DNA of 34,346 nt, taken from Candidatus Poribacteria bacterium (GTDB lineage: Bacteria; Poribacteria; WGA-4E; JAJDTR01). A model generated the notes under the pieces. It had not been told where the DNA came from. It was given only the letters and a program-made list of their open reading frames with translations, and searched no databases. Shown piece by piece: positions 18,069 through 34,018 of this stretch (position 1 is the stretch's first letter; each line of letters begins with the position of its first letter). The translations under genes were made by a program, and so were the position numbers. The stretch covers positions 1-34,346 of the forward strand of contig JAPPIK010000022.1 of assembly GCA_028820655.1 (NCBI GenBank), read 5' to 3'.

Positions 18069-19100
18069 CTACGTTAGCCCAATGGAGTGCGACGATCGGG
18101 TGGTGTCAATCTCGGCGTCGCCGGCGGGTGAAGCAATGGCTTGGCGCATCTCCGTGTCGGCGAGGATATTCCTGAGGTTGTAGTAGTCCATAACGCTCAT
18201 TCGGCTCGAATCGAAGGAATCGGCAATTGCGCGGGGAACCTCGGCTTCCGCTTCGACAAGAGTGACGGTCATCTCTTCGACAAGCGCTTTGTTCTCCTCT
18301 TCCTCCGCCTGCGCTCGCGCACGCCGTTCCTCTGCTTTCGCTTGAGCGATTTTTAACTCGGCTTGCGCTTGATCGGTCTGCAGCTTGGCGCCGACGTTCT
18401 CGCCAACGTTGATGTCGGCTATATCAATCGATAGGATTTCAAAGGCGGTTCCGGCGGATAACCCTTTTTCTAGTACCGTTTCCGAAATGCGTACCGGGCT
18501 TTCCAAAACCTCCTTGTGGCTTGCCGCAGAGCCGATGGTCGTGATAATCCCTTCGCCCACCCTGGCTCTAATGGTTTCTTCGGTAGCCCCGCCGACGAGC
18601 CGGTCAATGTCCGCCCGTACCGTTACCCGCGCCTTGACGATCAGTTGAATGCCATCGCGCGCAACGGCGGTAATTCCGGTTTGGCTGTCTCCCTTGGAGG
18701 GGATGTCGATAATCTCCGGGGTGACGCTGACCTGCACCGCCTGCAACACATCGCGACCGGCAAGGTCGATTGCGGCAGCTTGTGCGAAGTCCAGCGAGAT
18801 ATTCGCTTTGTCCGCGGCGATGAGCGCCGCGACGACGCTGGCGACTCTTCCGCCCGCGAGATAATGCGCCTCTAGTTCATCGAGCGAAAGGTTGAGCCCC
18901 GCCTTGGTCGCGTTGATTTGCGGCTCTATGATGCCTTTGGGAGGCACACGCCGCAAACGCATCGCGACCAGATCGCCAAAGATCCGCACCCGAACATTCG
19001 CCGCGATCGCGGTGATCCATAAACCGATAGGGACGAACGTGGTGAGGAATATGAGAAATACAATAACAAGAACCGCGAGTATCGCAACAACTGACGGCAT
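18069..19100 (-). CDS. floA: Flotillin-like protein FloA
   Basis: A 343-residue flotillin-like protein that organises functional membrane microdomains and fluidity at the inner membrane. An N-terminal hydrophobic segment (about 5-35, ending [15 protein letters not shown]) is followed by the strongly conserved FloA core: [55 protein letters not shown] and [17 protein letters not shown] coiled-coil region rich in Ala, Glu, Gln and Lys (about 240-285, with [20 protein letters not shown]) and the typical tail [18 protein letters not shown] follow. AAAGGAGGG lies before the start. It is 14 bases downstream of a second FloA-type gene and belongs to the NfeD operon. FloA and NfeD are partners in Bacillus (yqfA with yqeZ) and many other genomes. 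Confidence 0.95.
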
Positions 19101-19114
19101 CTGAAACCCTCCTT

Positions 19115-20020
19115 TTATGATTGCGGTGTCAAGGTGCCTTCGCGGAACGCACCGGCTAGAGCACGGGGAACGGAAGCCTCGGCTTCGACAACGGTGGCTC
19201 GCATCTTTTGGACATTGGCTGTCATCTCCTGCTTGCGCGCGACTGCCATTGCTCGTCTTTCCTCCGCTTTAGCCTGCGCAACGACCAGATCGGCTTCGGC
19301 TTGCTCGGCTTGGAGTTCGGCTCCGATATTCTTCCCGACATTGACATCAGCAATATCAATGGATAGAATTTCATAGGCGGTGCCCGCGTCTAGCCCTCGA
19401 TCCAATACGGTCTTGGACATTACATCGGGATTTTCAAGGACATCCTCGTAGGTTTCCGCGGCGCCGATTGCGCTGATGATGCCCTCTCCGACCCGCGCAA
19501 TGATAGTCTCTTCGCCTGCGCCACCGACAAGCCTGTTGATGTTTGTCCTCACAGTGATACGTACGACGGCGATCAACTCAACGCCATCAAGTGCGACCGT
19601 GCTGATGCGCGGAGTCGTGATTACTCGAGGATTAACACTAACCTGCACGGCCTCAAAAACATCTCGCCCCGCCAAATCAATTGCAGCGGAACGCTGGAAA
19701 TTGAGGTCGATTTTCGCTTTATCCGCCGCAATCAATGCGTTCACAACCCTCAACACATTTCCACCTGCTAGATAGTGTGCTTCAAGATCGGTCGTTTTAA
19801 CCGTCAACCCTGCCTTCGTCGCGCTAATCTGTGCGTTGACAATTACGTTCGGATTCACCCGCCGTAAACGCATCCCGACCAAATCGCCGACAATGCGGAT
19901 TCGCACGCCTGCCGCTTGAGCGGCGATCCACAGACCGACAGGCACAAACCAAAAGAAAACTAACAGGAAAATCAATACCAGTACAGCGATAATTGCTGTG
20001 AAACCTGTTATATCAGGCAT
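19115..20020 (-). CDS. floA: Second FloA-type flotillin, C-terminally shortened
   Basis: A 301-residue paralogue of the downstream FloA, with the same membrane segment ([15 protein letters not shown]) and core ([55 protein letters not shown]). The coiled-coil part ([20 protein letters not shown]) is present. The chain then stops at [12 protein letters not shown] and lacks the YYNLRNI-type tail of its neighbour. It also lacks the [13 protein letters not shown]-type insertion after the core. GGAAGGAGAG precedes the start. The gene lies 27 bases after a short NfeD gene and 14 bases before floA. The pair may form mixed oligomers; the missing tail could change assembly or partner choice. That is inference. 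Confidence 0.9.
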
Positions 20021-20047
20021 CTAGGCTCTCCTTCCTTTAAATAACGT

Positions 20048-20350
20048 TTACCGGCTCCGGACTACAACCCGGCTCCCTTCTACGGCAACCACTTCCACCT
20101 CTGTATCAGACTCGATAAATTCTCCATCAGTAACCACATCCACCCGCTGTCCATCAATGAACGCTACTCCCGCCGGTCGAAGCGGAGATAGAGATTGACC
20201 GGAACGGCCTGTTAAAGCCGCCAATTCCTGCGGTGCTGCTTGGAATCCATCCGCGCTGCTTTGTGATGTCTTGAGTATGAGCGCCCGCACCAATTTCACT
20301 ACAGCGGCCAAAAGCACCGCAACGATCACCAAGGTTAGGATGGTATCCAT
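20048..20350 (-). CDS. Short NfeD-like protein, one membrane segment plus OB fold
   Basis: A 100-residue protein with an N-terminal membrane helix (about 4-25, LTLVIVAVLLAAVVKLV) and a C-terminal NfeD OB-fold domain (about 45-100). Shared family text includes ALTGRSGQSLSPLRPAGVAF, DGQRVDVVTDGEFI and a final VEGSRVVVRS, nearly the same as in the other two NfeD proteins here. It lacks the ClpP-like protease domain and most of the membrane bundle, so it is shorter than the usual short NfeD of about 140-150 residues. AGGT lies six bases before the start. It is the third gene of the operon, just upstream of the two flotillins. It probably derives from duplication of the larger neighbour. Confidence 0.85.
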   Translation of the reverse strand: MDTILTLVIVAVLLAAVVKLVRALILKTSQSSADGFQAAPQELAALTGRSGQSLSPLRPAGVAFIDGQRVDVVTDGEFIESDTEVEVVAVEGSRVVVRSR

Positions 20351-20376
20351 AACGACCTGTCCAATTTAAAGACCGT

Positions 20377-20859
20377 CTACTGGCTCCGTACGACAACCCG
20401 GCTTCCCTCGACGTCAATCACTTCGACCTCCGTCTCGGGCTGGATGAACTCGCCGTTAGTGACTACATCTACCCGCTTGCCATCGATTAAGGCAACACCT
20501 GCCGGTCTAAGTGGAGTCACGGAACGACCGGAGTGACCGACGAGTGTTGCTAACTCCTGCGGCGGGGCTTGAAAGCCTTCCTCGCTATTTTGGGCTGTCT
20601 TGAGAATGACGGTTCGTCCAAGTTTCGTTCGAGGTGCGAGCCACAACCCCAGTACAGACAGTGGAATGATAATCACAACGGTCCCGCCAGCGTATAGCGA
20701 CGCGGTTTCCCATCCGTTTTCGACCCAAACTATCCCGATTCCGACACATATAAGGATAATAGCGGGCACTCCAGCCGCTCCAAAGCCGGGCAGTAAGATA
20801 ATTTCAATAAATAGCAGTAAAACTCCCAAGCCGAGGAGAAAGAGGGGTAACGGCGGCAT
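20377..20859 (-). CDS. Short NfeD protein (membrane bundle plus OB fold)
   Basis: This 160-residue protein corresponds to the short NfeD class, which lacks a protease domain. Three membrane segments occur at about 3-25, 27-47 and 53-74, with the family LLFIEIILLPGFGAAGVPAI stretch. The C-terminal OB-fold domain (about 100-160) reads LVGHSGRSVTPLRPAGVALI, then DGKRVDVVTNGEFI and VEGSRVVVRS. AAGGAA lies just upstream. Short NfeD proteins interact with flotillin-type proteins and help them form microdomains, matching the two flotillin genes downstream. The gene follows full-length nfeD after a 93-base gap. Confidence 0.92.
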   Translation of the reverse strand: MPPLPLFLLGLGVLLLFIEIILLPGFGAAGVPAIILICVGIGIVWVENGWETASLYAGGTVVIIIPLSVLGLWLAPRTKLGRTVILKTAQNSEEGFQAPPQELATLVGHSGRSVTPLRPAGVALIDGKRVDVVTNGEFIQPETEVEVIDVEGSRVVVRSQ

Positions 20860-20952
20860 AAGAGCGTTCCTTCAATGGAAAATTATCACAGGACTCAATC
20901 CTTCCTTTACACGCTTAGCGAGGCGGAGTGCCTGTGTAAATCTAATTCTGTC

Positions 20953-22482
20953 TTACGCTGTGTTCGGTGCCTCCTCCGAGGCTTCGACAAAGACCTTTGA
21001 CCCTTCCACTTCAATTACTTTAACAGGAGTTTCGGAAGGGATGAAATCGCCCGCGGTGAGCACATCGACGCGTTTTCCGGCAAGGCGGATCGTACCAGCC
21101 GGACGTAAGGGCGTTATTGACGTTCCTATCTGTCCGATATAACTTTGGAAATCCTCGTCTCCTGCGGAATGAAAGCCTATGTCCGAACTCATCTCAGTTG
21201 CCAAAGCGAAATGCTTCCATGCGCGCGTCTTTGGGAAGAGATAGAACGCGGCTATCACGCCGATTGCGGTGAGGACGATAACAGATGAAAACGCCAAAAC
21301 CGCCGTTTCAAACTGATAGGCGCTCTTGAATACATAAAATATTCCGCCGAACATAAGAATGATGCCGGAGATACCCGCGACGCCAAATCCCGGCAAGACA
21401 AAAACCTCGACCATCATTAATCCCACTCCCAAAACAAAAGCCAACGCCGCCCACTGCGCGCCAATTTGGCTCAGCATATGACCGCCGAAGAAGATACCCA
21501 AACATAGCAAGCCGAGCATTCCGGGCACGCCGAACCCGGGCGATTGAATTTCTATCCATAGTCCAAGCATTCCTAGCGAGAGCAGTAACGAACTGATAAT
21601 AGGACTAGTGAGAAAGATGACAATCCGATCCGCCAATGAAACCAAGGCTTCGTCGGTTGTCGCACCTTCGAGCGACTTGACAAACCATACACTTTCGGCG
21701 CCAAGTTCTTCCTGTTTTTGCGCTATCGCTTCCTCTGTCAGCGCTTTCCTAATTCCATCAATCTCGACGATTCTATACATCGCCAAGAGCTCTTCAAATG
21801 AATCTGCGCGCCCATGCGCGAAACCATACTCCAAGGCTTGGTCGGTGGTCAATGTCAACAACTCACCTTCGGCGGAGATGACCTCCATCTCCTCGCCATC
21901 TTCCTTTTTGTCTTCAAAAATGTCCGGTCTGTACGAGAGAATTCTACCATCCGATAATCTAACAAGCACGCGTTTCTTGTCAACCATTGCAACTGCAATA
22001 TGTTCATTGTGTCCCTGTCGTTCCGCGGTTGTTTCGATGGTCGAGCGAACATAGGAAAGCGCTTTTTCCCCAGCCTCTTCACCCTGCATAGAGACCGGAG
22101 CGGAGTCGCCAATTGTTCCGCCCGATACCATCACAATCTGATCGCAGGCGATGGAAATCATTGCTCCTGCCGAGATTGCCTGTCTGTTTACGTAGGCGAT
22201 GGTTGGCACCTTCGTGTCTTGAATCGCGTCCATGATTTTCTGCGCGGAATCAACTCGACCACCGGGCGTGTCAACATCAAAAATTATGGCATCCGCATGG
22301 GCTGTTTCGGCGCGCAGAATACCGCTCTGGATGTAGGTCATTATCCCGCTGCCAATCTGATCGCGTATGTTGACGATATGCACCAAGGCGTCATCCTGTG
22401 CCGACGAGATCAATGACATGGCTAGGAGGCTAACGCCGAGTATTATGAATATGCAACTTGTCAAACGTGTTTTGCTAAACAT
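20953..22482 (-). CDS. nfeD: Full-length NfeD membrane serine protease
   Basis: A 509-residue NfeD1b-type protein: signal segment (about 1-27), ClpP-like serine protease (about 30-240), a multi-pass membrane bundle (about 285-415) and an OB-fold C-terminus (about 440-500). The catalytic dyad is S104 in QAISAGAMISIACDQIVM and K140 in EKALSYVRS, as in the archaeal homologue PH1510, which cleaves hydrophobic stomatin tails. FDVDTPGGRVDSA before it is the usual substrate-binding segment. I use the ATG at 22482 because AGAGGTG is spaced six bases from it; an in-frame GTG at 22491 overlaps that site. It is the first gene of the operon, with a perfect promoter at 22594-22622. Likely role: quality control or cleavage of the flotillins encoded downstream. 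Confidence 0.93.
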   Translation of the reverse strand: MFSKTRLTSCIFIILGVSLLAMSLISSAQDDALVHIVNIRDQIGSGIMTYIQSGILRAETAHADAIIFDVDTPGGRVDSAQKIMDAIQDTKVPTIAYVNRQAISAGAMISIACDQIVMVSGGTIGDSAPVSMQGEEAGEKALSYVRSTIETTAERQGHNEHIAVAMVDKKRVLVRLSDGRILSYRPDIFEDKKEDGEEMEVISAEGELLTLTTDQALEYGFAHGRADSFEELLAMYRIVEIDGIRKALTEEAIAQKQEELGAESVWFVKSLEGATTDEALVSLADRIVIFLTSPIISSLLLSLGMLGLWIEIQSPGFGVPGMLGLLCLGIFFGGHMLSQIGAQWAALAFVLGVGLMMVEVFVLPGFGVAGISGIILMFGGIFYVFKSAYQFETAVLAFSSVIVLTAIGVIAAFYLFPKTRAWKHFALATEMSSDIGFHSAGDEDFQSYIGQIGTSITPLRPAGTIRLAGKRVDVLTAGDFIPSETPVKVIEVEGSKVFVEASEEAPNTA

Positions 22483-22593
22483 GGCAATCACCTCTTCTTA
22501 AGTCCGAATGGCGAATGAGGTGGAAAAGTTTATGGATTTCTCGAGTTCGGTCTGGCCCAATCTGCGATCAAAGCGTACAGAATACACAACTCT

Positions 22594-25865: not shown

Positions 25866-26978
25866 ATGATAATTGAACAGACACAATTATTCAATAACGG
25901 CGAGGACGGATATCGTGCTTATACCACTCCTTCGTTGACAAGAACAGTGGCCGGAACGATGCTGGCATTCTGCGAAGCCAGAAATAGTGACCCAACCGTA
26001 ATGGGCGGCGACTCGGGCGATATTGACATCGGTCTCAGACGCAGTTTTGACAACGGGCGCACATGGGGGCCCATGCAGATCGCCGTCCGCACCGGTCCGG
26101 ACACCGATGGAAATCCTGCCGCGGTAGTGGATAGGGATACGGGAACAATCTGGCTGGTGTTTTGCCAGAACTTTGCCGATGGTCCGGAGGACCTGATTGT
26201 CGAAGGCAAAGCGCCGCGTACCGTTTGGATCACGTCTAGCAAAGACGATGGGGAGACGTGGGATACGCCGCGGGAGATTACAAGCGAGGTAAAAGATCCT
26301 TCGTGGACATGGTACGCGACGGGTCCCGGGGGAGGAATCCAACTGTCAAGCGGTAGGCTCGTTATTCCGTGCGATCATGTGCAAGGTGTAGCGAGCGGCT
26401 ACAGTGACGTGGCATCCTCAGTGGCGACACTGGCGGCGTTTGGCCATTCGCACATCATCTACAGCGATGACCACGGTGAACATTGGCACATCGGCGGCGT
26501 GGCGCAAGCGGGCACGAACGAATCGAATGTCGTCCAAACGATTGACGGTGCCTTGTACTTGAACTGCAGGAATTACGTGGGCGACCACCGACGCGCCTAC
26601 GCTTGGAGTTATGATGATGGCTTGTCCTTTTTGGAGTCCGGTTGGGATGATACGTTGCCGGAACCGATTTGCCATGCGGGTATGACCCGCTTCACGGACG
26701 AAAATTCGCACGACAAGAATCGGGTTCTCTTTTCAAATCCTGCGAGCAAAAGCCGAAGAGAACGCCTGACCGTTCGAATTAGCTATGATGAGTGCCGCAC
26801 TTGGAACGCGGGCAAAGTCCTTCACGAAGACCATTCGTCCTACTCGGGTATCTGCACCGCCGGCGATATGAGCATCTGCTGCCTCTACGATCACGGCTTC
26901 GGAAGTGATTACGATGGGCTTACCCTCGCGCGATTCGACCTCGAATGGCTCACGGATGGGGCTGACAGCGTCGCATAG
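25866..26978 (+). CDS. Sialidase-like BNR/Asp-box six-bladed propeller protein
   Basis: The 370-residue protein is related to GH33 exo-alpha-sialidases. It keeps the first arginine in a YRAYTTPSL segment (R17, the counterpart of the FRIP motif). It also keeps the FCEARNSD and GDSGDIDIGLRRS segments that usually carry further active-site Arg and Asp residues. Five Asp-box-like turns are visible: SFDNGRTW, SKDDGETW, SDDHGEHW, SYDDGLSF and SYDECRTW. No signal peptide is present, so the protein appears cytoplasmic unless exported by another route. A sulfatase-superfamily gene follows after 114 bases in the same direction, suggesting a joint role in breaking down sulfated or sialylated glycans. 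Substrate specificity cannot be told; many relatives are not true sialidases. Confidence 0.8.
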   Translation: MIIEQTQLFNNGEDGYRAYTTPSLTRTVAGTMLAFCEARNSDPTVMGGDSGDIDIGLRRSFDNGRTWGPMQIAVRTGPDTDGNPAAVVDRDTGTIWLVFCQNFADGPEDLIVEGKAPRTVWITSSKDDGETWDTPREITSEVKDPSWTWYATGPGGGIQLSSGRLVIPCDHVQGVASGYSDVASSVATLAAFGHSHIIYSDDHGEHWHIGGVAQAGTNESNVVQTIDGALYLNCRNYVGDHRRAYAWSYDDGLSFLESGWDDTLPEPICHAGMTRFTDENSHDKNRVLFSNPASKSRRERLTVRISYDECRTWNAGKVLHEDHSSYSGICTAGDMSICCLYDHGFGSDYDGLTLARFDLEWLTDGADSVA

Positions 26979-27092: not shown

Positions 27093-28601
27093 ATGGAACA
27101 TCTGAACATCGTTGTCATTTGTCTCGACACATTTCGCGCCGACATTGTAGGGCCAAACAAGCGGTTCAGCGACATCGACACGCCGGCGCTTGATACGCTC
27201 GCCGCCGAATCGGCGCGATTCAATCGCTGTTTTACCGAACCCGGACAGACCGTCCAGGTGCGAAACGGCTGTTTCACCGGTATGCGCGGATTCCCGTACC
27301 TCCACGGCTACTACGGCTGGCACGAAATTCCGGACGAGTATCCCACGATTGCCGAGATTCTGCTGGATCATGGCTACGCCACGGGCTTGATCGCCGACAC
27401 GCCCCATCTGTTCAAGCCAAATATGAATCACCTCCGAGGTTTCATGACATGGGATCACATTCGAGGCGCCGGAGGCGACGGCTGGCACACCGGTTCTTGG
27501 GATCTCATCAGGGAACTGTATAAGGACTATTTTGGAGCATACGAATCTGCCGAGCCCGATGCTTCGCACTTGGGAGGCAGAGGCCACTTTCTGCAACATT
27601 TACACAATGTTCGGGACAGGAAAGAGGAAGCAGACTGGTTCGGTGCAAAGGTCTTCGCCAGCGCCAGTAGATGGCTACGCGACAATGCGGCGAATTCGCC
27701 GTTTTTCCTTTGGATCGACTGCTTCGAGCCGCACGAGGTGTTCGATCCTCCGCTGGATTACGTGCACCGCTACATCGACTCGTGGCAAGGTCCGAAATAT
27801 CAACAGCCTCGCCATATTCTTCATCGATCATTCTTTTCGGATATGAGAGGCGCGGATCTCGATGTCAAAACGCGGGATTATATTGATTACTATACCGCCT
27901 GTTACAAAGGCGAGATTACCTTTACCGATACCCATGTGGGTCACTTTCTCGATCAACTGGATACTCTCGGGCTGAAGGATGACACGGTTATTATCTTCTT
28001 CACCGATCACGGTACCGAGTTAGCCGATCACAAGGGCTGGGGCAAGCGCAACACGGAGTTGCATCCTTTCAACACGCAGCAAAACCTTACAATTCGACAC
28101 CCGAACGAAGGGTGGCAGGACCGTGACGTCGAAGCCTGGGTGCAAAACTACGACCTTGGTCCGACCATCCTTGATCTGGCAGGAGCACGGGAAGCGAGCG
28201 AGAAGATGGATGGAGAAAGTGTTTGGTCGTTGGTGACCGGCGAACGTGAATCGCTCCACCCGTACATCACTACGGCGTGGGGCGGACGCGTTTCGATTCG
28301 CGACGAGCGCTGGGTCTACGCCACGGGCTGGGATTTCGAGGATTCGAACCCCGAGTTATACGACTTGTCAGCGGATCCAGACGAGCGGCAGAACATGCAC
28401 GATCAGCAGCCGGAGGTAGTGAGTGAGTACCGGGCGCGGGTTGAAACTTTGCTTGGCACGCCGATTCCGCAGCCTTACTCGCAGGACCGCTTTGGTCCTA
28501 TCGTGGGGCCCTTGAGCAAACCGCTTTATGCCGAGTCTTATGCACCGGTGTTCTACAATGCTCGGCAGGAGTGGGATGAACCCCGCGCGCTTCCGAAATA
28601 G
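27093..28601 (+). CDS. Sulfatase-superfamily protein lacking the catalytic Cys/Ser
   Basis: This 502-residue member of the alkaline phosphatase/sulfatase fold has N-terminal NIVVICLDTFRADIVG with metal ligand D12. The second metal pair is D305-H306 in FFTDHGTELADHKGWGK. The sulfatase signature region reads TVQVRNGCFTG (53-63). It aligns with the usual C-x-P-S-R-x-x-L-L-T-G by its Arg and TG, so the residue that should become formylglycine is T53, and Pro and Ser are also lost. It may be inactive as a sulfatase or use Thr as nucleophile, as phosphodiesterases of the same superfamily do. The C-terminus has the usual ELYDLSADPDERQN segment. No signal peptide is seen. AAGGAA lies 11 bases before the start. 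It is probably co-transcribed with the upstream BNR gene. Confidence 0.85.
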   Translation: MEHLNIVVICLDTFRADIVGPNKRFSDIDTPALDTLAAESARFNRCFTEPGQTVQVRNGCFTGMRGFPYLHGYYGWHEIPDEYPTIAEILLDHGYATGLIADTPHLFKPNMNHLRGFMTWDHIRGAGGDGWHTGSWDLIRELYKDYFGAYESAEPDASHLGGRGHFLQHLHNVRDRKEEADWFGAKVFASASRWLRDNAANSPFFLWIDCFEPHEVFDPPLDYVHRYIDSWQGPKYQQPRHILHRSFFSDMRGADLDVKTRDYIDYYTACYKGEITFTDTHVGHFLDQLDTLGLKDDTVIIFFTDHGTELADHKGWGKRNTELHPFNTQQNLTIRHPNEGWQDRDVEAWVQNYDLGPTILDLAGAREASEKMDGESVWSLVTGERESLHPYITTAWGGRVSIRDERWVYATGWDFEDSNPELYDLSADPDERQNMHDQQPEVVSEYRARVETLLGTPIPQPYSQDRFGPIVGPLSKPLYAESYAPVFYNARQEWDEPRALPK

Positions 28602-28684: not shown

Positions 28685-30718
28685 CTAGTCGGCTACTATC
28701 CGGCGCAAATTGAACCCGCTCCACACCCAGTGCGCGCGACGTTCATTTCCGGAAGCATGGATAACTAAGATAAGCGTTTTATCACTCACTTCAACGGTAA
28801 ATCTTCCCTTAACCATCTCATTGCTGTCGGGCGCCGCAGTCTGAATCTCGCGCCTTCCATTTGCGTAAAGATCGATGCTGTGCGCTTTCCCGTCATTCGA
28901 TTGGAAGCGGCACGTTACCTCATACTCTCCGTTCGGCAGGTCAATCCTGAAAGCCGCGTCCTCCGTGTCCCAAACGCCAGTGCCTAAAAAGTCGCCAGTA
29001 TTTTGGAAAGAATGTCTGGGATAAACCGTGTCCCAACCGAAACCTCCGGGTTGATACCGTGTGTCGACAAAGATTGGTATAGACATACCATCAAATGTGG
29101 CTGGACTGGAGGCATCTTTAGCTTGCATCTGAAAGTTTACTTGCTCGGCGTTCGCGTACTTTCGCCACGCTTGAGTGTTTTCGTTATGATTCCTGTGCCG
29201 AAAAATTCGATACGGTTTGGAATATTTTCGAGATTCGGGAGTGGAGTGGACAATAGCGTAGTCACCCCGATACTTGTCCATTTGAGGGCTGTTTTCCTCA
29301 ACGTTCCATCCCAATCGATAATCAATGAACCCGCCCGGGTATTGATGCCGCTTTTTGTCATCCTTGAAATTGAGCGGGAAATAGTTGAATTGCGCTTCGT
29401 AGTTGCCGATAAATACCCTGTCTCCCGGTATCATGTGGTACAAGTAGAGGTTGCAATGCGGATGCGGGATATCGGACTGCCACCTGTCATCCCAGTCGTC
29501 GTTATCGGGTCCCATATTTTCAAAGACAATGTGGTCCGGGAATGAGTCCAGCGCGTCACCGTAGTCGTCCATGGAGCGATTAAAGCCGTAGTAATCCCGG
29601 CAGGTATATCCCAAATGAACGACTGAGAGAAAAACCATCAATCCAACAGCGCACCACCGAACCGTCTTGTGGAAATCGAGGTTGAGCCACGGCAACAGGA
29701 TTGGTATCCAGAACATGTGAACTCGTTCATTGATGTAGCCGCCATCGCCTATCCACCGCGGCGCTTTGAAGTACGCAATCACGAAAACGATGGATAGGAT
29801 GAGAAATAGGTCCCGGTTCGCCAGCCATTGCCTCGGTTGGATTTTGTCCTTCCATAGTGTCCACAAAATGAGCAGCGCGATAAATCCGAGCAGCACGTAG
29901 TTTGTCCAGACATGGCTCTCGTTGAAGTACACGAGTGCCTTCGTCTGAAGAAAATATTCCCATAACTGCTCGGAACTCCAGTACCGATACAGCTTGTCCG
30001 TGGCGTCGTTGAGCAGGTAGTTGACCATGATAAATCCCGCCGGAAGCATATATCCAGCGAAGATGAGTAGCTTCCTCGGCGCAACAATCAGCCGTAAAGC
30101 GCAAATGGAGAGTGTCACCAACATCAGCCCATACGATGAAATATGGCAGAAATACAGCAAGATCATGAGAGCGTAAAACGCGCCGATGTTCGCGAGCGAC
30201 ATGGACTCATGGTGCCGCCACCAGTAGCCGAGGAGATAGAAGAAAACCGGGAAACTGATTGCGAAGTTGTAGAAGCCCATGTGGAGCAAATAGTTATATC
30301 CGAAAAGGAATCCGAGCAAACCGAGAATCTGGTTACCCGATCCGAATGCCGTCTCGGCATTGCCTCCGGCAATCGCGCGCAAAAAGTAAAAAAGCGATAG
30401 CGGCGCCAATGCGATGCAAAGGGTCAGCAGGATCTTCTCCGCGATAATCGGGGACACGAGAAACATCAAGCCAGCCATAAAAGCATGGGAAAACCAATTC
30501 GGGAAGAGAGTTAGGTTGAGTTCAAAACACTCCCGAACCTTATACATGGCGGGGTTGTTGTATTCTTTCAGCAGATAGGCGTTGTAGATATGGGACGCGC
30601 CGTCTTGCGACGGGAAGTATTTGAATACCCAGAGAGGCAGGAGGTGAGCGACAAGCAGCGCAATGGCGATGTATGTGAAGGTCGACCGCTTCCGGAAGAG
30701 GTGAAGATATCTATGCAT
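28685..30718 (-). CDS. GT-C-like multi-pass membrane protein with C-terminal carbohydrate-binding-like domain
   Basis: A 677-residue protein. The first about 370 residues hold roughly ten membrane helices. Just after the first helix an acidic loop (YFPSQDGASHIYN, D39) occupies the position of the catalytic Asp in GT-C-fold glycosyltransferases, which use polyprenyl-phosphate sugars. A soluble region follows, rich in His, Asp and Tyr (about 380-550). A C-terminal domain (about 555-677) has FxGTGVWDTEDAAFRIDLPN then GEYEVTCRFQSNDGKAHSID and ends WVWSGFNLRRI, which resembles malectin or galactose-binding modules. Activity is inferred from topology and the acidic loop only; the exact family is not recognised. 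It has its own candidate promoter at 30761-30789, after the terminator of the upstream BNR gene. Confidence 0.65.
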   Translation of the reverse strand: MHRYLHLFRKRSTFTYIAIALLVAHLLPLWVFKYFPSQDGASHIYNAYLLKEYNNPAMYKVRECFELNLTLFPNWFSHAFMAGLMFLVSPIIAEKILLTLCIALAPLSLFYFLRAIAGGNAETAFGSGNQILGLLGFLFGYNYLLHMGFYNFAISFPVFFYLLGYWWRHHESMSLANIGAFYALMILLYFCHISSYGLMLVTLSICALRLIVAPRKLLIFAGYMLPAGFIMVNYLLNDATDKLYRYWSSEQLWEYFLQTKALVYFNESHVWTNYVLLGFIALLILWTLWKDKIQPRQWLANRDLFLILSIVFVIAYFKAPRWIGDGGYINERVHMFWIPILLPWLNLDFHKTVRWCAVGLMVFLSVVHLGYTCRDYYGFNRSMDDYGDALDSFPDHIVFENMGPDNDDWDDRWQSDIPHPHCNLYLYHMIPGDRVFIGNYEAQFNYFPLNFKDDKKRHQYPGGFIDYRLGWNVEENSPQMDKYRGDYAIVHSTPESRKYSKPYRIFRHRNHNENTQAWRKYANAEQVNFQMQAKDASSPATFDGMSIPIFVDTRYQPGGFGWDTVYPRHSFQNTGDFLGTGVWDTEDAAFRIDLPNGEYEVTCRFQSNDGKAHSIDLYANGRREIQTAAPDSNEMVKGRFTVEVSDKTLILVIHASGNERRAHWVWSGFNLRRIVAD

Positions 30719-32189: not shown

Positions 32190-32957
32190 TCACCGGATCT
32201 TCTTGATGCCGCCCCATGTTGTGGCGAGTTTTGCCCCCGGCTCTACGGATAAGGTCATCAAATCGGGAATTGCGCGGGCGGGCAACTGTTCGTCATGGAT
32301 TTTTAACTCGTCGACGATTGAGTATGTTGGGAACTTCGCAGGATCCGTTTCGTTGTTGTTGATTGACATCCGTTCGATGATATTGGCGGGGCCACCTTTG
32401 TACCGGTTTTGGGCGGCCAATTCACCGTCAAGATACAGATGGAGCCCGGCTGCGCCCCATGTGCCAGCCATGTGATGGATTTCACCCTCTTTCCAATTCA
32501 GCTTGGCGCTTACGGCGTTGTGCCACTCGTTACGCACTTCCCGCACTCGGAATTGCGCAACCGGACGATTTCTTCCTCCGCCAATCATTAAACCGATGGC
32601 ATCTGTTTGAGCTCTGTTATACGCCCAGAACATAAAGGCTTCGTCCTTGCCGGTTTTGTTGGTGAACTTATCTATGTCCCAACCCAATATCAACCAGCAC
32701 TCCAAAGTGCCTTCATCCAGGTAATGTTCACCCAATATCTTGTGCATGGGAAAGTGTACTACGGCGGTCCTCTCGTTACTGATGAATCCGTTCCCCCGCA
32801 CGCCCGGCACGAATTGGCCGCCGCCCACGACCGAGCCGCCTTCTCTCTTGACGGAGGCAGCGTTTTCCAACGTTGTGTGAAAGGTTATCTTGGCGGCGGC
32901 AGATAGTAGATGCACAAAAAACAGAGCGGCGGTGATACTATAGCATACCTTTTTCAT
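32190..32957 (-). CDS. Secreted LamG/concanavalin A-like protein, copy 2
   Basis: A 255-residue protein with a signal peptide (about 1-22, ending LLSAAA) and one LamG-type jelly-roll domain that probably binds a carbohydrate. It is a clear duplicate of the gene at 33236-34018. Shared blocks include GGSVVGGG-FVPGV-GNGFIS, GTLECWL-LGWD-DKF, TDAIGLM-GGG, FRVREV--EWH, WKEGE-HHM-GTWG and YSIVDEL-IHD-QL. The usual LamG ending, DDDEVAALYEQ in the other copy, has degenerated here to PARAIPDLMTLS. Both end in an AKLATTW tail. The ribosome site is weak and I found no strong promoter, so it may be read from the upstream copy. Its function beyond binding is unknown. Confidence 0.82.
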   Translation of the reverse strand: MKKVCYSITAALFFVHLLSAAAKITFHTTLENAASVKREGGSVVGGGQFVPGVRGNGFISNERTAVVHFPMHKILGEHYLDEGTLECWLILGWDIDKFTNKTGKDEAFMFWAYNRAQTDAIGLMIGGGRNRPVAQFRVREVRNEWHNAVSAKLNWKEGEIHHMAGTWGAAGLHLYLDGELAAQNRYKGGPANIIERMSINNNETDPAKFPTYSIVDELKIHDEQLPARAIPDLMTLSVEPGAKLATTWGGIKKIR

Positions 32958-33235: not shown

Positions 33236-34018
33236 CTATCGCTTCACCGCTGCCCACGTTGTGGCGAGTTTGGCAGTTGGATCGACAGATGTTGCAGCTT
33301 CCGCCACTCTTTGTTCATACAGAGCGGCTACCTCATCATCGTCGAGTTGAACGTCATGAATCCGCAGCTCGTCCACGATTGAGTACGTAGCGAAATTAGC
33401 CGGATCGGACTCGTTGTTGTTGATGGACAGCCTTTCGATAGGATTCTTGGGCCCCCCAACGTAAGGATCGTCCGCCGCCCATTCACCGTCCAAGTACAGA
33501 TTGACTGCGTTCGGTCCCCATGTTCCGAGCATGTGGTGGGCTTCGCCCTCTTTCCAGTCCAATTCCTCGCTAGCCGCACTATGCCATTCTTCGTCGACTT
33601 CCCTAACGCGGAACCAGGCAATCGGCGTATTATGACCGCCGCCGACCATCAAGCCGATGGCGTCTGTGCCGGCCTTATTGTAGGACCAGAACATGAAGGC
33701 TTCGGCTCTATCGGTGACATCGGAGAACTTGTCGAGGTCCCAACCTAGCACCAACCAGCACTCTAACGTCCCTTGTTCTTGATAACCCGGGATGTGACCC
33801 TCAAAGGGATAGTGCACCACAGCTTCCTTCTCGTCACTAATGAATCCGTTCCCGATAACGCCCGGAACGAAACTACCGCCGCCGACGACTGATCCGCCGG
33901 TCGCTTCCACCTGTTCCTTGCTTTCCAAAGCCGCATGGAAGGTTACCTTGGCGGATGCTGACAGAATCGGCATTACCACCAATGCGACACAGGTGAGGAT
34001 TAAACACGTTTTTTTCAT
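33236..34018 (-). CDS. Secreted LamG/concanavalin A-like protein, copy 1
   Basis: A 260-residue protein with a signal peptide (cleavage after about residue 23, ILSASA) and one LamG/laminin-G-like domain spanning most of the mature chain. The ending DDDEVAALYEQRVAEAA is the standard close of this domain in bacterial LamG proteins, so this copy is intact. A short conserved tail AKLATTWAAVKR follows. GGAG lies before the start and a good promoter is at 34149-34177. The protein should be exported and may bind glycans on the cell surface or in the surroundings. It heads a likely minus-strand transcript with the second LamG gene and a BNR protein, which suggests a glycan-handling module. Confidence 0.85.
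   Translation of the reverse strand: MKKTCLILTCVALVVMPILSASAKVTFHAALESKEQVEATGGSVVGGGSFVPGVIGNGFISDEKEAVVHYPFEGHIPGYQEQGTLECWLVLGWDLDKFSDVTDRAEAFMFWSYNKAGTDAIGLMVGGGHNTPIAWFRVREVDEEWHSAASEELDWKEGEAHHMLGTWGPNAVNLYLDGEWAADDPYVGGPKNPIERLSINNNESDPANFATYSIVDELRIHDVQLDDDEVAALYEQRVAEAATSVDPTAKLATTWAAVKR

Follow-up and report, generated by a model that had tools for sequence, protein, structure and literature searches.

Threonine in place of formylglycine is known in outline for the PF00884 sulfatase family: Barbeyron et al. (2016; PMC5066984) report it at the formylglycine (FGly) position in 30 of 59 seed sequences, and state that proteins with a T-x-N-x-E motif should not be regarded as functional sulfatases until experiments show them to be so. 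According to the same account, oxidation of threonine yields a ketone and never formylglycine (PMC5066984). Threonine is described as the nucleophile of the ENPPs (PMC11677397) and of MCR-1, a phosphoethanolamine transferase for which Asp465, His466, Glu246 and Thr285 are given as Zn1 ligands and His478 as a Zn2 ligand (PMC5216409). The phosphonate monoester hydrolases (PMHs) are reported to cleave phosphodiesters too, and to have Tyr at the LysA position and Asp or Thr at HisA; in the same report, replacing fGly by Ser in five ASs and four PMHs left about a tenth of kcat/KM on average, a roughly tenfold mean cost that covers both sulfate and phosphorus substrates (PMC5488252), so catalysis on this scaffold is possible with an ordinary hydroxyl group. 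For the arylsulfatase EfAS, the K110A mutation is reported to abolish function, and mutants of Q21 also lose it (PMC12421950, mBio 2025).

Here we describe a gene from a Candidatus Poribacteria bacterium, within a stretch of 34,346 nucleotides analysed at its full length (the window), whose product has the sulfatase fold and Thr at the formylglycine position. We suggest that the product is probably a working enzyme and, by analogy with the enzymes above, that its targets are phosphate-type bonds and not sulfate esters. The features on which the argument turns are the following.

25866..26978, + strand: upstream neighbour, a BNR sialidase-like protein (PF13088, 2.1e-32)
27093..28601, + strand: Thr-type sulfatase-fold hydrolase, 502 aa (open reading frame and translation, PF00884, SGSH_C)
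27126..27131, + strand: Asp12-Thr13, first metal ligand and next residue (subfamily alignment)
27249..27263, + strand: nucleophile motif T53-V-Q-V-R57, with Thr replacing the formylglycine Cys/Ser (translation, alignment)
27396..27407, + strand: D102-T-P-H105, where sulfatases have their G-K-x-H motif (subfamily alignment)
27732..27737, + strand: H214-E215 of the FEPHEVFDPP motif, a subfamily signature (subfamily alignment)
28005..28010, + strand: Asp305-His306, metal ligands (187 of 187 subfamily proteins)
28044..28046, + strand: Lys318, 13 residues after Asp305 (186 of 187, one gap)

In a Pfam profile search the window protein is a clear member of PF00884, and thus has a domain of the sulfatase fold (3e-30, 106 bits against a cut-off of 25), with an SGSH_C match at 1.2e-10; no signal peptide is evident from its N-terminus, and its sequence contains no membrane domain. 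The original prediction read the stretch 27249–27281 as TVQVRNGCFTG with Thr53 at the formylglycine position and with D12, D305 and H306 retained, and all of this is borne out: the translation gives that signature and those three residues, and Thr53 (codon ACC, 27249–27251) aligns with the nucleophile of solved sulfatases (STPAR in 7oz8, CVPAR in 9koq and SSPAR in 2qzu). Given that Thr occupies position 53, formylglycine is impossible there. The protein departs from the [CS]-x-P-x-R motif of formylglycine sulfatases (T-V-Q-V-R) and, at D102, from the GKxH motif with its LysA; neither does it have the Cys-derived FGly nucleophile of the PMH/PehA enzymes or their pairing of Tyr at LysA with His at AsnA, as His306 is present but position 102 is Asp rather than Tyr. 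The NPP family PF01663 falls just below its gathering score (22.9 bits against 23) and matches residues 274–324 of the protein only, and no NCBIfam model reached its cut-off for the window protein, for seven other subfamily or near-subfamily proteins, or for the locus L003.

To describe the wider group we counted as its subfamily those distinct proteins, among all fetched loci, that have H214-E215 and score at least 200 bits (E215 is therefore present by construction), which gave 187 proteins from Poribacteria, Chloroflexi and plasmids. Position 53 is Thr in 136 of them and Cys in 51, and none of the 187 has Ser as an intermediate between Thr and Cys. R57, D305 and H306 are each present in 187/187; K318 is found in 186 (one gap; 136/136 Thr members), D12 in 186 (one gap; 135/136 Thr members) and D102 in 186, comprising 135/136 Thr members and all 51 Cys members. 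Among the 136 Thr members, position 13 is Thr in 105 and Ser in 30, with one gap; at position 55, 80 of them have Pro and 51 have Gln. The replacement of the signature proline that the original prediction noted thus holds for the window protein (Gln55) but not as a trait of the group: the commonest motif is T-x-P-x-R, that is, the sulfatase signature with the nucleophile alone altered, and Gln55 is a later change common to part of the lineage. The original prediction asked whether the T-x-Q-x-R group is conserved; it is, as a part of this wider T-x-P-x-R group.

The Thr is fixed in a large and strongly conserved lineage. A single odd mutation or a sequencing error is ruled out by the 136 distinct Thr proteins and by the same Thr in a 91% identical gene (L038). 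Purifying selection is evident from the NG86 dN/dS of four pairs (0.107, 0.101, 0.078 and 0.062, the last from a pair with saturated dS), and these values of 0.06–0.11, together with the invariant ligands, point to a working enzyme and make a pseudo-enzyme unlikely. Outside the subfamily criteria, 50 proteins have a residue at position 53, 45 of them Cys and five Thr by alignment, one of the five (L098) being a misalignment whose true motif is C-T-P-T-R. Thr-bearing PF00884 proteins outside the subfamily were seen at L068:9897-11204 (motif T-G-P-G-F), L003:1333-2712 (T-T-S-A-Y) and L175:1180-2817 (T-N-A-S-H).

For the pocket, 17 Cys sulfatases from elsewhere were aligned with the 59 subfamily rows of the tree, of which 49 are Thr and 10 are Cys. 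Asp102 occurs in 58 of the 59 subfamily rows, where 15 of the 17 others have the Lys of GKxH; position 13 is Thr or Ser in 58 of 59 (one Trp), where its equivalent is most often Gln (8) or Asp (5). H214 and E215 are present in 49/49 Thr and 10/10 Cys rows, and R124, G125 and D129 in 59/59; H214 and K318 are retained, and E215 is absent from the residues listed for the 17 others. H306 is His as in the PMHs and EfAS, classical sulfatases having Asn, and the spacing of K318 (13 after Asp305) equals that of D311-K324 in EfAS and D465-H478 in MCR-1. By alignment, EfAS Q21 and K110 correspond to positions 13 and 102 of the window protein; the alignment of HisA is uncertain, as the subfamily has one extra residue between D102 and H105. 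Given that D102 is common to the whole Cys sister group (51/51), the loss of LysA does not track the nucleophile, and it may reflect merely a different sulfated substrate.

In the AlphaFold2 model of the window protein (17-row alignment, mean pLDDT 66.5, pTM 0.76), Thr53 begins a helix at 53–62; pLDDT falls below 50 at 213–216 and 308–327, which include H214-E215 and K318, so the pocket geometry is not trustworthy. Lys318 at the spacing of a Zn2 ligand speaks against a second metal site, an indication that has to be read against a model that is metal-free and poor at 308–327. The solved folds ranked top by Foldseek were PMH 4uph, EfAS 9koq and SpAS2 4upl, and VIA-align gave Z of 28–31 to sulfatases and PMHs alike (sulfatases over 340–395 residues). 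Sequence searches with Thr and Cys profiles found no solved structure from the subfamily, their best solved matches (E of 5e-51 and 3e-48) being other sulfatases and PMHs.

The Cys sister group with the same pocket signature was not anticipated by the original prediction. Thr and Cys lineages form one group (support 100/99 in the careful tree, 100 in a 106-row tree), the Cys lineage comprising haloarchaeal, alphaproteobacterial, enterobacterial, Paenibacillus and Chloroflexi-side proteins. Within the careful tree these Cys proteins are nested among the Thr rows, adjoining seven of them (100/97), and the 106-row tree, which has more border sequences, shows the same nesting at an SH-aLRT of 94. 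Near-duplicate rows had been removed at >85% identity for the 86-row tree and >70% for the 106-row tree, and further named rows were removed from the careful tree (eight), the 70-row set (eight) and the 106-row set (four). Thr as one clade was rejected on 78 rows (p-AU 0.000127) and on the reduced 70 rows (AU p 0.0074), but was not rejected in the most extensive sample, of 106 rows (AU p 0.26); one exchange of the nucleophile and several exchanges, in either direction, are all possible on these trees. We tentatively raise the possibility that formylglycine and plain Thr were exchanged more than once within an unchanged pocket (D102, RG-x3-D129, H214-E215 and K318), with one of the exchanges perhaps a reversion from Thr to Cys/FGly. 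If true, such repeated exchange would amount to a natural test of what formylglycine contributes.

Within the window's phylum the gene is near-universal (76 of 84 genomes match at E <= 1e-60), with one copy in most genomes of the Poribacteria family f4, and in a Chloroflexi-side sample of 301 genomes 44 match at E <= 1e-100, two of them (G094 and G107) with a Cys-type match only. Genes 91% identical to that of the window occur in L038 (Candidatus Poribacteria) and in a genome of the same genus (G013). The next-nearest relatives (L039-L050) are from Chloroflexi/Chloroflexota at 75–79% identity (one at 60%, one at 31%), whereas other genomes of the window's own phylum reach 35–48%; on this contrast of sequence identities, the gene was probably transferred between Poribacteria and Chloroflexi. 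These organisms are probably sponge symbionts. A relative at 33.5% identity, annotated as a sulfatase (WP_236953515.1), lies on a plasmid of Martelella mediterranea, a cultured species. An IMG/VR contig labelled viral (L136) starts with a Thr-type relative at 29% identity, the sole relative among contigs so labelled; phage records gave 17 weak matches.

The host genome (5.9 Mb) has 21 sulfatase genes above the Pfam cut-off, the alignable ones mostly of Cys type, and 13 PF03781 matches. It contains a second Thr member of the subfamily (L002) and, in L003, a Thr protein of another kind that is without the Arg. Among Thr-bearing Chloroflexi-side genomes, 8 of 36 have no match to PF03781 (FGE): a first search covered 12 genomes including the two Cys-type bearers, with 4 of the other 10 lacking a match, and a second, at a limit of E 1e-20, covered 26, with 4 lacking one. 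PF03781 includes members other than FGE. Given that two genomes (G088 and G288) have Cys sulfatases and yet no FGE match, such absence may mean incompleteness or another maturase, and it lends weak support to independence from FGly.

The gene neighbourhoods differ between subclades. Directly upstream, on the same strand, pyrF is found in 27 of 27 Poribacteria f4 loci (L010-L037 except L019), and argH precedes pyrF in L053, both genes scoring above NCBIfam cut-offs; in the f2 loci L054, L059 and L060, a nicotinate phosphoribosyltransferase gene (cluster c16, named from L054) lies directly downstream. In these three loci a xylose-isomerase-like TIM barrel gene stands on the other side of the Thr-type gene. 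The pyrF and nicotinate phosphoribosyltransferase neighbours tie two subclades to the synthesis of nucleotides and pyridine nucleotides, a hint at nucleotide-type phosphodiesters or pyrophosphates as substrate. For the window gene itself this hint is weak, as it adjoins the sialidase-like gene and not pyrF; that neighbour (cluster c39) occurs, among the loci shown, only in the same-genus L071 and L038, beyond which no conserved neighbourhood was found for the window's own subclade. In the Chloroflexi relatives the surrounding genes encode Band 7, aldo/keto reductase, PhyH, RtcB and Gfo/Idh proteins, and other contexts (methyltransferase, ABC transporter, gamma-glutamyltranspeptidase and WD40) show no pattern. 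Beside an Enterobacter Cys sister (L166) are PTS genes, with a gene annotated as aryl-sulfate sulfotransferase near, a context that hints at sugar sulfates. Elsewhere in the window, all on the − strand, are two adjoining FloA flotillin-like genes with an NfeD1b-type gene nearby (18069-22491), a 677-aa membrane-protein-like reading frame without a Pfam or NCBIfam match (28685-30718), and an apparent tandem pair of laminin-G-like proteins (32190-32957 and 33236-34018; cluster c41, also in L071).

From these observations we infer, with middling confidence, that the window protein is an active cytosolic enzyme that hydrolyses phosphodiesters or pyrophosphates with one metal and a Thr nucleophile, and that it belongs to the sulfatase/phosphonate monoester hydrolase (AS/PMH) branch within the alkaline phosphatase superfamily. 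A metal held by D12, D305, H306 and Thr53 would activate the Thr hydroxyl, and the alkoxide would attack phosphorus in line, in a phosphodiester or pyrophosphate possibly of nucleotide or sugar-nucleotide type. R57, H214 and K318 would stabilize charge instead of a second metal, and water would then hydrolyse the phospho-Thr intermediate. The reading for phosphorus is favoured by the loss of LysA both in the subfamily (D102) and in the PMHs (Tyr), by the PMH, EfAS and SpAS2 folds at the top of the Foldseek ranking, by the Thr-bearing genomes without an FGE match and by the pyrF and nicotinate phosphoribosyltransferase neighbours. Against it count a pocket signature, D102 included, that a Cys (FGly) sister group has as well, the sugar-sulfate hint from the Enterobacter locus, the fact that the nucleotide-related neighbours belong to other subclades, and the low confidence of the model at precisely H214-E215 and K318; moreover, the fGly-to-Ser data apply to sulfate esters too, which leaves room for a slow Thr sulfatase.

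Such a formylglycine-independent sulfatase, in which Thr attacks sulfur, the sulfo-Thr is hydrolysed and sulfate esters continue to be the substrates, seems to us unlikely. The closest curated models are indeed sulfatases (best NF010322 arylsulfatase, 147 of the 481 bits needed), the Cys-type sister group has the full C-x-P-x-R with the same pocket signature, the window genome is rich in Cys sulfatases, and AS fGly-to-Ser variants are reported to retain measurable activity on every promiscuous substrate, sulfate among them (PMC5488252). However, the LysA that is essential in EfAS (K110A; PMC12421950) is Asp here, and Thr is without the second diol hydroxyl that, as described for formylglycine, frees sulfate by elimination (PMC5066984). 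Quite improbable is a transferase that passes a phospho- or sulfo-group from donor to acceptor via a Thr adduct, as EptA/MCR do: the Thr nucleophile and Asp-His metal site are as in MCR-1 (PMC5216409), and there are weak profile matches to LtaS and MCR-3, but these lie far under their cut-offs (21.2 of 970 and 18.5 of 1075 bits) and the window sequence has no membrane domain. The original prediction had left a switch of reaction and a pseudo-enzyme side by side; the switch is now the better option, although still reached by reasoning, and a pseudo-enzyme that serves in binding or regulation is very unlikely. The lost canonical nucleophile and the replaced Pro55 would suit it, yet metal ligands, R57 and K318 are invariant in the 136 Thr members bar one D12 gap, most f4 genomes keep a single copy, and dN/dS is about 0.1. 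That another Cys (C46 or C60, both near Thr53) is the true nucleophile of an FGly-type enzyme is barely credible, as Cys occupies position 60 in 16/136 and position 46 in 25/136 Thr members and neither residue has a C-x-P-x-R context.

Databases name subfamily proteins as sulfatases (for example, the Martelella plasmid protein). Sulfatase counts serve to infer digestion by marine bacteria, sponge symbionts included. If Thr members carry out phosphorus chemistry, such counts are inflated; the Thr and Cys lineages with their common pocket also provide matched pairs for testing why sulfatases need formylglycine.

Set against known systems, the window protein resembles the FGly-sulfatases (SulfAtlas S1, PF00884) in fold, the D12/D305 ligands, Arg57, His214, Lys318 and an SGSH_C-like C-terminal part, and differs from them in having Thr for Cys/Ser, Asp102 for LysA and Thr/Ser13 for Asp/Gln. 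With PMH/PehA (RlPMH 2vqr, 4uph, NF045661) it shares His306 at the AsnA place, the loss of LysA and the top-ranked Foldseek fold, although it scores 77.3 of the 900 bits needed for NF045661 and the PMHs are described as having an FGly Cys, Gln after the first Asp and Tyr at LysA (PMC5488252). The Mn-dependent arylsulfatase EfAS (9koq, NF052527) has the same D/D/H metal set, the K324 spacing and 22% identity over the whole fold, but the window protein reaches 82 of the 850 bits needed for NF052527, and EfAS is reported to have C61 as nucleophile, with K110 and Q21 (PMC12421950). With ENPP/NPP, LtaS, EptA and MCR it shares a Thr nucleophile and an Asp-His metal site. LtaS and EptA differ in being membrane proteins and in their motifs. 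The ENPPs are described with two zinc sites (PMC11677397), unlike the single metal proposed here, and MCR-1 has its Zn2 ligand His478 at the spacing that Lys318 holds in the window protein (PMC5216409). The Thr example of Barbeyron et al. is T-x-N-x-E, as against T-x-[PQ]-x-R in this subfamily (PMC5066984), and our searches of open-licence PMC papers brought up no description of a T-x-P-x-R lineage with a pocket-sharing Cys sister. What is new is thus the delimitation of a Thr lineage in which the remainder of the sulfatase signature is intact and which has a Cys sister group.
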